Positions 2,194-35,787 of a stretch of DNA of 64,000 nt are shown piece by piece. Position 1 is the stretch's first letter. Each line of letters begins with the position of its first letter. The position numbers and the translations under genes were made by a program. Under the pieces are notes generated by a model that was not told the origin of the DNA, ran no database searches, and saw nothing but the letters and a program-made list of their open reading frames with translations. The DNA comes from Devosia sp. A16 (lineage in GTDB: Bacteria > Pseudomonadota > Alphaproteobacteria > Rhizobiales > Devosiaceae), in contig NZ_CP012945.1 in assembly GCF_001402915.1 (NCBI RefSeq), positions 3,449,501-3,513,500 of the forward strand, given 5' to 3'.

Positions 2194-3408
2194 GTGACCA
2201 ATATCAGCGCCTCCCCACCTGCTCCTTCCTTCAGCTGGCCGAAACTCGATCGCGGCCCGGTCATCGTGGCGCTCCTGATGTTCGTGATCGGCAGCGTGGT
2301 GATCGGCCAGGTGGTCGACCTGCGCCAGACCGTCCTCTTCCTGATCGGCGGGCTGCTCGGCGCGACGCTCTATCACGCCTCCTTCGGCTTCACCGGTGGC
2401 TGGCGCCGGCTGGTGGTCGAAAAGCGCGGCGCAGCCGTGCGCGCCCAGATGCTGATGGTGGCCATTGCCGCGGTCGTCTTCATTCCGTTGCTCGCCGGCG
2501 GCAGCGCGTTCGGCCGGCCGCTGGCCGGGGCCGTCGCCCCGGTCGGTGTCTCGGTGCTGGTCGGCGCGGCGATTTTCGGGCTCGGCATGCAACTGGGCGG
2601 CGGTTGCGGTTCGGGCACCCTGTTCACCGTCGGCGGCGGCAGCGCGCGCATGCTGGTGACGCTGGCGGCCTTCATCTTCGGCGCGCTGCTCGGCACGGCG
2701 CACCTTCCCTGGTGGCTGGCGCAGCCGTCGCTCCCCAGTATCAGCCTCGGCACCAGTCTCGGCGCGCCGCTGGCCGTCATCGTGACGCTTGCCGGCCTCG
2801 CCGCCGTCGCCGGCATCACCGTGCTGATCGAACGCCGTGCCCATGGCGGGCTCGAGCAGGCATCAAAGCCCAAGACCCGCGGGCTGTCGCGCTTGCTGCA
2901 GGGGCCGTGGCCGCTGGTCGGCGCCGCGGTGCTGCTGGCGCTGCTCAACATCGCGACGCTGCTGATCGCCGGCCACCCCTGGTCGATTACCTATGGCTTC
3001 GGGCTGTGGGGCGCCAAGATTGCGCAATCGGTCGGCGTGCCGGTCGAAACCTGGACCTTCTGGACCGCGCCGGCCCAGGCCCAGGCGCTCGGGCGCAGCG
3101 TCTTGTTCGACATCACTTCGGTGATGGATTTCGGCATCCTGCTCGGCGCGGCTTTGGCCGCTGGCCTCGCCGGCAAGTTCGCGCCCAAGGCCGCCCTGCC
3201 GCTGAAATCGGCGCTCGCCGCGGTGATCGGCGGCGTGCTGATGGGCTATGGCGCGCGGCTGTCGTTCGGCTGCAATATCGGCGCGCTGTTCAGCGGCATC
3301 GCCTCGGGCAGCCTCCATGGTTGGGTTTGGTTCGCCGCCGCCTTTGCCGGCAGCTTCGTCGGCATCGCGCTGCGTCCGGTATTCGGTCTCGATGGGTTCA
3401 AGAAATGA
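2194..3408 (+). CDS. YeeE/YedE (TsuA-like) sulfur-compound transporter
   Basis: 404-residue polytopic membrane protein of the YeeE/YedE family, members of which import thiosulfate (TsuA). It shows the duplicated family layout with two sulfur-relay motifs: GGGCGSGT with Cys138 and SFGCNIGALFSG with Cys360, plus FGFTGGWR near residue 64. In TsuA, equivalent cysteines pass the substrate through the pore. I prefer the GTG at 2194 because AGGA sits ten bases upstream; a TTG at 2185 is possible. Its stop overlaps the next start (ATGA), so it is coupled to the Cys-repeat gene. Thiosulfate is the best-guess substrate; the nearby exported rhodanese supports a sulfur role. Confidence 0.85.
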   Translation: MTNISASPPAPSFSWPKLDRGPVIVALLMFVIGSVVIGQVVDLRQTVLFLIGGLLGATLYHASFGFTGGWRRLVVEKRGAAVRAQMLMVAIAAVVFIPLLAGGSAFGRPLAGAVAPVGVSVLVGAAIFGLGMQLGGGCGSGTLFTVGGGSARMLVTLAAFIFGALLGTAHLPWWLAQPSLPSISLGTSLGAPLAVIVTLAGLAAVAGITVLIERRAHGGLEQASKPKTRGLSRLLQGPWPLVGAAVLLALLNIATLLIAGHPWSITYGFGLWGAKIAQSVGVPVETWTFWTAPAQAQALGRSVLFDITSVMDFGILLGAALAAGLAGKFAPKAALPLKSALAAVIGGVLMGYGARLSFGCNIGALFSGIASGSLHGWVWFAAAFAGSFVGIALRPVFGLDGFKK

Positions 3409-3803
3409 GCGGTTCGCGTAACACCCTGCTGTTCGGCGCGGCGCTGCTCGCCGCCACTGCGGCCGTCGCCGCCGACCACGTGACCCGCGGCAGCGGCGCG
3501 GCCGCGCCTGCCGCGGTGACGGCCGGAGCGGATGCAGCGTCCAACCCTTGCGCCGCGGCTTCGCCATGCGCCGCTGAATCTCCATGTGCGGCTTCCTCGC
3601 CTTGTGCAGCCTCGTCGCCCTGCGCGGCAGCCTCGCCCTGTGCCGCTGCCTCTCCATGTGCCGCAGCCGCCCCCTGCGCCGCGGCTGCTCCATGTGCAGC
3701 GGCTGCGCCTTGCGCTGCGGCCGCCCCGTGCGCTGCGGCCGCCCCGTGCGCTGCGGCAGCGCCCTGCGCGGCAGCCGCTCCCTGCGCGGCAGGCAGCCTC
3801 TGA
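3405..3803 (+). CDS. Exported Cys-rich hexapeptide-repeat protein (14 PCAAxx units), unknown function
   Basis: 132 residues. Residues 7-22 are a hydrophobic export signal ending AAVAA; a short Ala/Gly-rich linker follows; then the rest is 14 tandem hexapeptides of the form P-C-A-A-x-x. The variable pair is AS, ES, SS, SS, AS, AS, then AA seven times, then GS before the stop. All 14 Cys are in the repeat and equally spaced. The reading frame is supported by ATGA coupling to the transporter upstream and TGATG coupling to the gene downstream, and by varied synonymous codons (TGC/TGT; CCT, CCA, CCC, CCG) that keep the peptide constant. I do not recognise a characterised family. Regular exported thiols beside a sulfur transporter suggest a sulfane-sulfur carrier or soft-metal buffer; that is inference. 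Confidence 0.8.
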   Translation: MSGSRNTLLFGAALLAATAAVAADHVTRGSGAAAPAAVTAGADAASNPCAAASPCAAESPCAASSPCAASSPCAAASPCAAASPCAAAAPCAAAAPCAAAAPCAAAAPCAAAAPCAAAAPCAAAAPCAAGSL

Positions 3804-4408
3804 TGGCCGACCCGGCGGAGCGGCTTCGCGCGGCGCAGGAAGCGCTGTTCTGCGAGGAGGTTCTGTTGAAGGGCGGCGACAACGTCTTGCACGCCACCCT
3901 CCGTGATGCGCCGGTCATCGCCTGGACCCACTACCCGCCGGGCGATGTCTATGACCCCGCTTCGGGCGGCCAGTGGTATTATCACTGCCATATTCCGGCA
4001 GCCGAGGCCGAGCACGGGCACTTCCACTGCTTCGTCCGCCCGGACGGCAAGGACGGTCCGGTGCATCACCTGATCGCCGTCGGCGTCGATGCGCATGGCA
4101 GGCTGCTACGCTTGTTCACCGTCAACCAGTGGGTGGTCGGCGACAGCTGGCTCGATGCCGAACCGAGCATTGCGCTGCTCGAGCGCTTCGACATCCAGAT
4201 GCCGCAGCCCTCCTACCTCACCAACCGCTGGTTGAGCGCCATCCTTCGCCTCTACGCCGACGAAATCGCCGGCCTGATCCGCGCGCGCGACGCCATTCTC
4301 GCGGCGCGCCAGACACCGGGCGGCGCGCCGATCCGTGACGACCGCGCGCTGGAGGTGACATCGGAACTCCGTGTGGATCTGCCGTCGACGGTTCGGGCCT
4401 TGAGCTGA
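3803..4408 (+). CDS. Conserved-type hypothetical protein with dense His/Cys cluster
   Basis: 201 residues, soluble, no signal peptide or membrane segment. The notable part is a His/Cys-rich stretch HCHIPAAEAEHGHFHC, giving His61, Cys62, His63, His71, His73, His75 and Cys76, with another His pair at 88-89 (VHHL). This spacing could bind a metal. The C-terminal half looks helical with several Arg. I do not recognise the family with certainty; it may be one of the uncharacterised DUF families found in proteobacteria. Start and stop both overlap neighbours (TGATG), so it is made together with the Cys-repeat protein and the acetyltransferase. An ATG reading through from further upstream would overlap the repeat gene in another frame and is unlikely. 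Confidence 0.75.
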   Translation: MADPAERLRAAQEALFCEEVLLKGGDNVLHATLRDAPVIAWTHYPPGDVYDPASGGQWYYHCHIPAAEAEHGHFHCFVRPDGKDGPVHHLIAVGVDAHGRLLRLFTVNQWVVGDSWLDAEPSIALLERFDIQMPQPSYLTNRWLSAILRLYADEIAGLIRARDAILAARQTPGGAPIRDDRALEVTSELRVDLPSTVRALS

Positions 4409-4830
4409 TGAGCGAACTGTCGATCAGCGTCACCGAAACCCCGACCGCCGATGAGCTGGCCACCATCGGTGGGCGCCTCACCGCCTTCAACGAGGGTGAC
4501 GTCGGTCCGGCCGATCGCCGGCCGCTTGCCGTCGTGGTGCGCGATGAGGCCGGCGCCATCGTCGCCGGCCTTTCCGGCTATACCGCCTGGGGCTGGCTCT
4601 ACGTGCAGTGGCTGTGGGTCGCCGAGGAGCAACGGGGCGCCGGCCTCGCCGGCCGCATGCTGACGGCGGCCGAGACGGACGCCAAGGCCCGCGGCTGCCA
4701 CGGCGCCTATATCGACACCTTCAGCCCGGTGGCGCTGAAAACCTATCAGCGCGCAGGCTACGTGTCGTTCGGCGCGCTCAAGGATTTTCCGCCGGGGCGA
4801 ACGCGGACGTTTCTGCAGAAGCGGCTTTGA
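4408..4830 (+). CDS. GNAT-family N-acetyltransferase
   Basis: 140-residue single-domain GNAT. The acetyl-CoA loop EEQRGAGLAGRML lies at about 73-85, after the beta strand WGWLYVQWLWV, and the C-terminal YQRAGYVSFG strand-turn matches the family fold. It is the last gene of the four-gene operon starting with the YeeE-like transporter, with a one-base TGATG overlap to the preceding stop. The substrate cannot be told from the sequence; acetylation of an amino group on a small molecule or on a protein of this operon are both possible. Confidence 0.85.
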   Translation: MSELSISVTETPTADELATIGGRLTAFNEGDVGPADRRPLAVVVRDEAGAIVAGLSGYTAWGWLYVQWLWVAEEQRGAGLAGRMLTAAETDAKARGCHGAYIDTFSPVALKTYQRAGYVSFGALKDFPPGRTRTFLQKRL

Positions 4831-4849
4831 GTACGAGCGCCGGTGGAGA

Positions 4850-4966
4850 CTGACCCCCACCCCTGTCCCCTCCCCCTAAGAATGGGGAGGGAGACCCTAT
4901 CACCGCTATCGAGGCTGACGTCTCCCTCCCCCTGTTTCAGGGGGAGGGGACAGGGGTGGGGGTCAG
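4850..4966. repeat. Long perfect palindrome 2 between convergent genes
   Basis: The outer arms, 4850-4877 and 4939-4966, are perfect 28-base inverted repeats; a second 12-base pair (4884-4895 with 4920-4931, GTCTCCCTCCCC type) is nested inside. It lies between two convergent genes, the GNAT and anmK, so it likely works as a two-way transcription terminator. Same family as the elements near 10.7, 35.7 and 61.7 kb. Confidence 0.9.
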
Positions 4967-4994
4967 CCCGCATCAGCGGCAGCGGTGAGCCCGA

Positions 4995-6113
4995 CTAAGC
5001 CGCCAACCGTCCACCCAGCAGCGGGTGCGGGGCACCGGTCGTCGTCGGAAAGCTGATCGGCAGCCCGCGCAATACCCGCACTGCGAGAAACGCGAAGCAC
5101 TCCGCTTCGATCGCGTCGCCGCGCCAGCCGACGGTTTCTGCCGGAGCCGCGTCCACCCCGGCGCGGGCCTTCAGCATCTCCATCATCAGCGGGTTGTGCC
5201 GCCCGCCGCCTGAAACGATCAACCGCGTCGGCCGCGTCGGCAGCAGGTCCAACCCCTTGCCGACGGCGGCGGCGGTGAAGGCGGTGAGCGTCGCCGCGCC
5301 GGTGGCCGGGTCGAGCCCGTCGGCCATGGCGGCGGTGAAATCGAAACGGTCGAGCGATTTGGGCGGCGGTGCGCTGAGATAGGGGTGCTGCAGCAGCTTC
5401 TTGAGCCGCGCCTCGTCCACGGTGCCGCTCCGCGCCAGGGCGCCGTCCCGGTCCATGTCGCCCAGTCCGCGCGCCTTCATGAAATCGTTGAGCGGCGCGT
5501 TCGCCGGGCCGGTATCGAAGGCGACCAGCCGGTCGGCGCCATCCCAGTAGGTGACATTGGCGACGCCGCCGAGGTTCAGCACTGCGGTCTCGCCATGCGT
5601 GCCTAGCCCGCGCAGCAGCGCCTGGTGGTAGATGGCGGCGAGGGGCGCGCCCTGTCCGCCGGCCCGCACGTCGGCCGATCGGAAATCATAGGCGACCTTG
5701 GCGCCCAGCAGCTGATGCATCAGTTCGCCGTCGCCGAGCTGCCGGGTGGCGCCGATCCGCCCCGGCTGCGGCGCGCGATGCAGCACCGATTGGCCGTGAA
5801 AGCCGACGACCCCGATATCGGCCATGTGGAGGCCGGCGCTTTCCACCAGCGCCTTGACCGCTGCCGACTGCGCCCGGGTCAGCATCTCTTCCGCCCGGGC
5901 GAAGATGGCTGGATCCGGCCCCTCGAAATTCCACTTGCGCGCCTCGGACAGCGTCTCTTCGAGCGTGTCGCGGATGGCCTGCGGGTAGGGAGCGAGCGTA
6001 TAGGCGCCGAATTGCTCGATGCTCTCGCCGTCCGTCTTCAGCAGCGCCACGTCGATATTGCCGTCGAGCACGGTGCCGGTCATCAGGCCCACGGCCCAGA
6101 TCGGTGCGGCCAT
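4995..6113 (-). CDS. anmK: Anhydro-N-acetylmuramic acid kinase AnmK
   Basis: 372 residues, close to the usual length. AnmK cleaves the 1,6-anhydro ring of anhMurNAc while phosphorylating it with ATP, giving MurNAc-6-phosphate for MurQ. Motifs seen: [13 protein letters not shown] at residues 9-21 (the family GxMSGTSxDGxD ATP loop, with Thr for Ser) and [13 protein letters not shown] carrying the catalytic Asp of DTGPxN. The ATG at 6113 follows a good GGGAGAG site and begins MAAPIWAVG; the upstream TTG is less likely. It is the last gene of the leftward murQ operon, 12 bp after the serine hydrolase. Confidence 0.95.
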
Positions 6114-10716: not shown

Positions 10717-10822
10717 TACCCCCCACCCTGTCCCTCCCCCGCAAGGGGGGAGGAGACGCCAACACTGACGCCGGTGTTTTGGTCTCCCTCCCCCTTGCGG
10801 GGAGGGGACAGGGGTGGGGGTA
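10717..10822. repeat. GC-rich palindrome 3 between SBP and permease genes
   Basis: Inverted arms of the type TACCCCCACC...GGTGGGGGTA with nested GTCTCCCTCCCC arms, same family as the element at 4850. It lies inside the leftward operon, after the SBP stop and before the permease start, where it could stop or process the transcript and protect SBP mRNA. Confidence 0.85.
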
Positions 10823-35657: not shown

Positions 35658-35787
35658 CCCCCCACTCTTGATCCCTCCCCGCAAGGGGGAGGGAGACGAA
35701 AACTGGGACGTCAGTGTAAGCGTCTCCCTCCCCCTCGGGGCGACATCTTGTCGTCCCCTTGCGGGGAGGGGACAGGGGTGGGGGTCC
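35658..35787. repeat. Palindromic element 7
   Basis: Outer arms of the CCCCCAC...GTGGGGG type plus nested GGGAGACG / CGTCTCCC; an extra small hairpin CGACATCTTGTCG at about 35741-35753 sits within the right arm. Same family as the elements at 4850, 10717 and 61691. Between the ATPase gene and the downstream SDR of the same operon. Confidence 0.8.

Follow-up and report, generated by a model that had tools for sequence, protein, structure and literature searches.

A rhodanese–YeeE–cysteine tail unit in many Alphaproteobacteria as a candidate system for presenting sulfur to a YeeE-type transporter

The stretch of Devosia sp. A16 analysed here (the window: 64,000 nucleotides of contig NZ_CP012945.1, positions 3,449,501 to 3,513,500, lying at 3.45 Mb of a genome that forms one contig of 5.03 Mb) encodes on its forward strand an exported rhodanese (1017-1940), a YeeE/YedE-family transporter (2194-3408) and an exported protein of 132 residues that carries 14 tandem Pro-Cys units (3405-3803) and is called the tail protein below. 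Our comparison with related loci establishes these three genes as the core of the unit, a near-obligate triad, with a gene for a DUF6969 protein (201 residues, 3803-4408) as a frequent accessory. We consider, with a probability of roughly 0.5 and on grounds of sequence comparison, that the tail is a periplasmic, possibly membrane-tethered carrier of sulfane sulfur between the rhodanese and YeeE. The initial annotation of this locus had joined the transporter, the repeat protein, a His/Cys-rich protein and a GNAT acetyltransferase through short gene overlaps. Reading of the open reading frames (ORFs) bears out its gene coordinates and the overlaps, namely ATGA between the YeeE and tail genes and TGATG both between the tail and DUF6969 genes and between the DUF6969 and GNAT genes; the overlapping gene of the His/Cys-rich protein is indeed present, and its label is corrected to DUF6969 (PF22308, E 4e-69).

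The conservation of this gene order was examined with an alignment of 16 YeeE proteins searched against a collection holding one genome per species, which returned 416 relatives; the best 80 were kept (the named loci) and span Devosia, Pelagibacterium, Aminobacter, Mesorhizobium, Sinorhizobium, Chelativorans, Thalassospira, Caenispirillum and others, the closest relatives being those of Devosia (L133-L136). In 79 of the 80 named loci, a rhodanese gene on the same strand lies directly 5' of YeeE, no more than 293 bases away, and the sole exception, L134, comes from a sequence with just 33 bases upstream. On the other side, 77 of the 78 loci that have at least 140 downstream bases carry a Pro-Cys gene in frame after YeeE (74 complete and three cut by the end of the contig, among them L142, where the conserved tail N-terminus alone is visible before the cut), the two loci outside this count ending 21 bases (L137) and 95 bases (L167) past YeeE. 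The remaining locus, L189 of D. algicola, keeps the Pro-Cys array open and has the usual N-terminus in a different frame, a shift that may reflect a sequencing error or decay. The proposal that transporter, exported rhodanese and Cys-repeat protein belong together is thus borne out in many genera, and in homologous loci the repeat gene is neither generally missing nor generally broken. Within the genus, DUF6969 was found in 8 of 19 genomes, all eight with a Pro-Cys gene between YeeE and DUF6969 that encodes 2, 4, 6, 9, 12, 12, 13 or 14 cysteines. Besides CcdA-like and thioredoxin-like genes, the neighbour clusters shared by five or more of the 80 named loci look lineage-specific.

Some individual records deserve mention. 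An intact tail ORF follows YeeE in S. meliloti and S. medicae sequences whose tables list no gene for it (L090 8168-8530, L292 3640-4060 and L294 3645-4040), the PLSDB tables being incomplete, and in S. medicae ml29 an annotated sulfate ABC substrate-binding protein is encoded next after the unit, which there includes the tail ORF, a neighbour in keeping with a sulfur role. S. meliloti R11 pSymA appears to carry a partial second copy (L092, about 4600-5590), with a tail gene, DUF6969 matches in two pieces and no YeeE match in the stretch; another genome (G022) has two similar YeeE-tail-DUF6969 copies (L043, L044), and in L285 (2139-4170) a YeeE gene in two frames is followed by DUF6969, with neither a tail gene nor a rhodanese match, and is possibly decaying.

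The tail protein of the window contains, as first described, exactly 14 PCAA units, and every one of its 14 cysteines falls in such a unit at a spacing of six residues. The 14-fold hexapeptide array (NPCAAA ... APCAAG, 3543-3794) was detected independently as a tandem repeat at 3549-3787 and 3618-3792. At the DNA level 11 of the 14 PCAA cores of 12 bases are distinct, and the changes between successive cores are distributed 0/0/29 over codon positions 1, 2 and 3; the peptide array is therefore under strong protein-level selection, and an array arisen by chance or by young slippage is ruled out by the same count. The comparison of repeat counts suggested in the initial annotation was extended to 75 complete rows (74 loci and the window), in which the YeeE-tail order recurs with 2 to 31 cysteines per tail protein (median 6). 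Proline precedes 719 of the 722 cysteines, alanine and proline account for 35% and 23% of the chain from residue 23 to the end, the median numbers of His and of Met beyond residue 25 are both 0, and CxC is found in none of the rows and CxxC in one. The protein has no match in Pfam or NCBIfam at E<=1, DUF2282 included, and its sequence matches in the PDB (tektin-5 at E 0.022 and two weaker ones) look like low-complexity or short-motif similarity and were left unused.

The N-terminal segment of the tail (residues 1-25, 3405-3479 in the window, [RK]N-x2-L[FY]G ... D-H) is conserved beyond the level of a signal peptide. Its full pattern, [RK]-N-[TY]-x-L-[FY]-G ... D-H, places the Asp 19 residues past the R/K in 75 of 75 rows, followed by His in 69. 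Mean pairwise identity over 73 loci, for which the rhodanese starts were picked by script (that of L184 wrongly), is 65% for tail residues 1-25, compared with 35% for rhodanese residues 1-22 and 60% for the rhodanese beyond residue 30; when the rhodanese leader was instead taken up to the conserved PLV (71 loci, leader length 21-32 residues), the values were 65% for the tail, 39% for the leader and 60% for the mature part. Being conserved above both the leader and the mature part of its neighbour, the segment probably does more than direct export.

A simpler form of the tail exists at greater distance. Eight rhodanese-YeeE pairs (Rhodobacteraceae plasmids L215 and L217; genomes L218, L225, L227, L233, L270 and L271), whose YeeE is 34-44% identical to that of the window, are immediately followed by a protein of 52-71 residues with a single hydrophobic segment, followed in 8 of 8 by an Asp (by eye), and one to three cysteines near the C-terminus, as PCG in five, some having further Cys within the hydrophobic segment. 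Their kinship to the repeat protein is judged by position, layout and the Asp, not by a sequence score. Because these distant pairs carry a minimal form, the array protein appears to be an enlarged member of a so far undescribed family of YeeE partners.

Tail and rhodanese are also inherited together. A mechanical test for a tail-type ORF (a hydrophobic N-terminal segment, at least one Cys after it and a start no more than about 115 bases from the YeeE stop) was applied to 118 non-redundant loci, seven more being set aside as too short, and found such an ORF 3' of YeeE in 80 of 87 loci with rhodanese versus 5 of 31 without (p 5e-15, uncorrected for kinship); for distant loci alone the figures are 11 of 13 versus 5 of 31 (p 3e-5). 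Reading of the seven misses revealed a tail gene in L138, L178, L188, L207 and L229 and a contig end after the first Cys units in L203; the last, L254, is weighed below. The five hits without rhodanese consist of a DUF6969 gene (L226), another exported protein (L237) and three doubtful frames (L220, L241, L245). In a quickly built tree of 60 YeeE proteins, 30 with and 30 without rhodanese, which covers part of the named 80 and has some long branches, the rhodanese label needs 2 changes versus a shuffled mean of 20.4, so that the rhodanese-linked YeeE form largely one block.

The transporter itself, which starts with GTG, matches Sulf_transp (PF04143) over profile positions 1-310 of 310 (245.6 bits for a cut-off of 27, E 1.2e-72). 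It has only two cysteines, C138 and C360, both invariant across the 16 aligned YeeE sequences; they correspond in alignment to C91 and C293 in TsuA of S. thermophila (6leo/8j4c), which PMC11073785 terms the second and first cysteine. According to PMC11582611 (rule in section 6), TsuA and SoxT proteins carry three conserved cysteines; the YeeE of the window has two of them. We rejected an identity with TsuA, since the scores of 59.3 of 400 and 52.3 of 645 bits are far under the NCBIfam cut-offs. The earlier description of a TsuA-like transporter with two Cys motifs is therefore right as to the family and the cysteines C138 and C360, and fails on the TsuA cut-offs and on C22. Compared with the TsuA-TsuB (YeeE-YeeD) system, the unit shares the Pfam family and the equivalents of C91 and C293, but an exported rhodanese and a Cys tail take the place of an adjacent TsuB/TusA: no YeeD/TsuB gene adjoins YeeE, and the single TusA-family match of the genome lies at 1.60 Mb, compared with 3.45 Mb for the window. 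As for the rhodanese, it is a two-domain protein (PF00581 in two stretches, E 1e-25) with a single Cys, C263, placed in FCNTGH, which we take to be the rhodanese active-site loop.

One attractive scenario is that the exported rhodanese would load its single Cys with sulfane sulfur from a donor, be it thiosulfate or some other sulfane compound, and would then transfer this sulfur to the thiols of the tail protein. The hydrophobic N-terminal segment of the tail may act as a membrane anchor beside YeeE, or as a recognised signal peptide, and the flexible Pro/Ala chain with its Pro-Cys thiols would store sulfur as Cys persulfide or S-thiosulfonate at the periplasmic mouth of YeeE, which would then move it inward by way of C360 and then C138. 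Tails with many cysteines would provide a local sulfur store and those with one to three C-terminal cysteines a simple carrier. The loading with sulfur, the direct contact, the anchoring and the direction of transfer are steps that we infer. The strongest argument for such a relay, which we favour, is that nearly every locus keeping the rhodanese-YeeE pair also retains a tail, in distant lineages with down to a single Cys; this suits a carrier, the array just multiplying the sites. More tentatively, and at somewhat less than even odds, the tails may constitute a new class of carrier (a disordered, low-complexity Pro-Cys chain whose length varies freely, with 1-31 thiols, held at a YeeE-clade importer by a strictly spaced membrane segment, charged by a dedicated exported rhodanese and concentrating persulfide at the transporter mouth), with DUF6969 as a new metalloenzyme family that would serve such poly-Cys systems across the Alphaproteobacteria.

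The canonical sulfur carrier was not found, since a search of the complete genome for SoxY gave no match (the same search being positive in 27 of 115 genomes; other sox genes were not searched). SoxYZ bears a single Cys on a flexible C-terminus and is a structured, Sox-bound protein. The proposed role as a periplasmic covalent sulfur carrier and the single flexible C-terminal Cys recall the minimal tails, whereas the tail is without a Pfam match and its genome without SoxY. The nearest published observation that we met is in PMC11582611, where SoxT1A of Hyphomicrobium denitrificans lies near a periplasmic DsbA-like thioredoxin, a cytoplasmic rhodanese and sox genes, and close to the gene for the uncharacterised Hden_0678, a Cys-free single-transmembrane protein of 56 residues. 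Both cases combine a YeeE-like importer with thioredoxin, rhodanese and a short single-transmembrane protein nearby, but Hden_0678 has no Cys, its rhodanese is cytoplasmic and sox genes accompany it. The same paper presents the alphaproteobacterial SoxT1B as a YeeE-like signal transducer for SoxR, a precedent for a signal or redox module in which YeeE and the tail would sense external sulfur or the redox state instead of importing sulfur in bulk. The neighbours go some way in that direction, as TetR-like regulator genes (by eye) stand upstream in 9 of the 80 named loci, the listed ones all Thalassospira, LacI-like and GntR-like genes occur in five loci each, and relatives of the CcdA-like and thioredoxin-like genes of the window in 9 and 10 of 80; regulators are nevertheless not general, reaching 9 of 80 at most, and we hold such a sensing function to be very unlikely.

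The DUF6969 protein is assigned by its Pfam match (PF22308, 232.7 bits for a cut-off of 27). No export signal was seen on it by eye, an alignment of 52 members has 23 invariant columns, including six His (H43, H61, H63, H73, H75 and H89), and its AlphaFold2 model (pLDDT 95.8) found no match at E<=0.001 in a fold search of the PDB; its sequence matches in the PDB (laccases, E 0.084 or worse) were set aside as apparent low-complexity or short-motif hits. It is probably a cytoplasmic, metal-dependent accessory that would act on imported sulfur or on Cys-repeat proteins. Among the named loci it occurs in 60 of 80: in 58 it lies directly downstream, and in L188 and L203 a weaker relative stands 5' of the rhodanese; four of the 20 loci without it end too early, and it is absent locally from all 13 Thalassospira loci, from Oceanibacterium and from two Devosia loci. 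It was found in 52 of 101 genomes of the wider family (loci retrieved for 30) and in 90 of 385 class-wide, that is, in 32 of 42 genomes with this YeeE type (E<=1e-60) versus 58 of 343 others (p 1e-14, uncorrected for kinship).

Forty class-wide DUF6969 neighbourhoods extend this association beyond YeeE: a strict Cys-repeat ORF was present within 3 kb in 20 of 40, versus 2 of 40 in the remaining sequence (p 8e-6; 233 kb near and 227 kb remaining), the neighbours being mostly NPCAAK/NPCNPC proteins. DUF6969 thus appears as a partner of exported poly-Cys proteins in more than one setting. Eleven of the 40 loci share a cluster of large Cys-repeat proteins, one tested member of which carries Cytochrome_P460, and 14 contain a gene from a cluster in which the member tested is an FGE-sulfatase. 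The NPCAAK/NPCNPC proteins resemble the tail as exported Pro-Cys repeats, yet they have another N-terminus, Lys in their units and no usual rhodanese-YeeE neighbour. DUF6969 near large exported proteins of this kind makes up an unnamed alphaproteobacterial module (L093-L132, for instance L097, L102, L111, L114 and L122), which often has an FGE-sulfatase-type gene and, by eye, genes for a small cytochrome c-like protein and a TRAP-type transporter.

These findings also invite another interpretation, by analogy with ribosomally synthesized and post-translationally modified peptides, in which DUF6969 would be a cytoplasmic metalloenzyme, recognising the tail N-terminus and modifying the Cys units prior to export. 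The enrichment of Cys-repeat ORFs near DUF6969, the conservation of the tail N-terminus beyond the level of a signal peptide and the six invariant His in a protein lacking a PDB fold match are all consistent with it, and PMC12452194 states that the signal peptides of bufferin precursors are thought to be part of enzyme recognition. However, DUF6969 has no recognised enzymatic fold, and tails stand beside YeeE in the Thalassospira, Oceanibacterium and two Devosia loci without a local DUF6969, which may lie elsewhere in those genomes; we regard this scheme as quite improbable. Modification of Cys by DUF6969 is a possibility that would be compatible with a sulfur carrier and a copper buffer alike.

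Several observations weigh against the sulfur-carrier reading. L254 is a rhodanese-linked YeeE locus that is truly without a tail gene, and YeeE has no Cys at the position of C22, the residue that faces YeeD in TsuA. DUF6969 lends the reading no specific support, as some loci lack it and elsewhere it is tied to Cys-repeat proteins outside rhodanese-YeeE units. In 68 of 75 rows the conserved Asp is immediately preceded by a signal-peptidase-like site, and the tail protein may accordingly be cleaved and free in the periplasm. Cleavage at this place would in most rows expose X-Asp-His, an N-terminus that resembles a copper-binding motif, and would favour a role in metal binding. Finally, CAPCGAPC forms the C-terminus of three of the eight minimal proteins; it contains a CxxC and would also be compatible with metal binding or a disulfide function.

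Some of these points feed the foremost competing explanation, a periplasmic buffer for Cu(I) or other soft metals (Cu, Ag, Hg) comparable in role to bufferins, in which rhodanese and YeeE would supply or recycle thiol sulfur. An exported chain rich in thiols, the possible X-D-H mature N-terminus with its His after Asp in most rows and the CxxC-holding ends of three minimal proteins are what such a buffer would have; L288 (4487-6086) offers an NPCAAK gene directly 5' of YeeE with, on the opposite strand, a long gene like a heavy-metal RND pump (by eye). The FGE-sulfatase-cluster gene of 14 of the 40 DUF6969 loci could also point to copper, FGE enzymes being described as cuproenzymes in PMC12452194. 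Against a metal buffer stand the minimal members with just one to three C-terminal cysteines, and the repeat-type rows have hardly any His or Met. By eye, we recognised no metal gene among the clusters that recur in five or more of the 80 named loci. Clusters of CxC and CxxC are the hallmark of metallothionein-like chelators; the 75 repeat-type tails do not have them, save for the one CxxC, and CAPC occurs in three of the eight minimal proteins. Bufferins (Buf1/DUF2282 and Buf2) are likewise exported Cys-rich proteins whose signal segment is possibly recognised in the cytosol (PMC12452194), but the tail has no DUF2282 match and varies in Cys count and spacing. A search of the one-contig genome for the MNIO enzyme (PF05114) gave no match (control positive in 2 of 14), and with no DUF2282 match either, a Buf1/MNIO bufferin was ruled out. 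On balance, the minimal forms with one to three cysteines, the scarcity of CxC and CxxC and the lack of MNIO make us lean to a sulfur carrier on the strength of these sequence features, and a soft-metal buffer seems unlikely.

Other features of the window are less tightly bound to the unit. The GNAT acetyltransferase (4408-4830, forward strand, PF00583), although joined to DUF6969 by its overlap, lies outside the conserved unit: the window protein used as query was found in 3 of 80 loci, and we rejected it as a core member and consider it incidental. Upstream, a divergent gene on the reverse strand encodes an exported thioredoxin-like protein with WCPNC (378-812, PF00085), and the gene next after it, CcdA-like as named by eye, starts at 370 on the same strand and runs off the window; the two are a possible supply of thiol reductant for the unit. 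An Rfam search returned 0 matches, and promoter and terminator scans gave nothing useful. A palindromic GC-rich, REP-like element, CCTCCCCCTTGAGGGGAGGG, has seven matches in the window, compared with 0.02 expected (1968-1987, 2037-2056, 10787-10806, 35673-35692 and three weaker sites), and two copies facing each other lie between the rhodanese and YeeE genes.

The initial annotation knew of no described system with this make-up, and in the open-licence literature, so far as its texts were accessible, we likewise found no description of a rhodanese–YeeE–Cys-tail unit; DUF6969 appears by name in no paper of that literature. The abstract of PMC11582611 describes as poorly understood how sulfur is imported into the cytoplasm of sulfur-using bacteria. 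Sinorhizobium meliloti and S. medicae both have the unit, with an intact tail ORF in three records, so that a tractable organism is at hand for experiments on the question. DUF6969, for its part, gains a biological context in the company of exported poly-Cys proteins. Many Alphaproteobacteria thus encode, beside an importer and a rhodanese, a small exported tail made of a conserved membrane-type segment and a flexible chain with 1-31 cysteines, and this widespread and genetically tight unit thereby contains a candidate protein that would present sulfur to an importer of the YeeE type, at its simplest through a single Cys.

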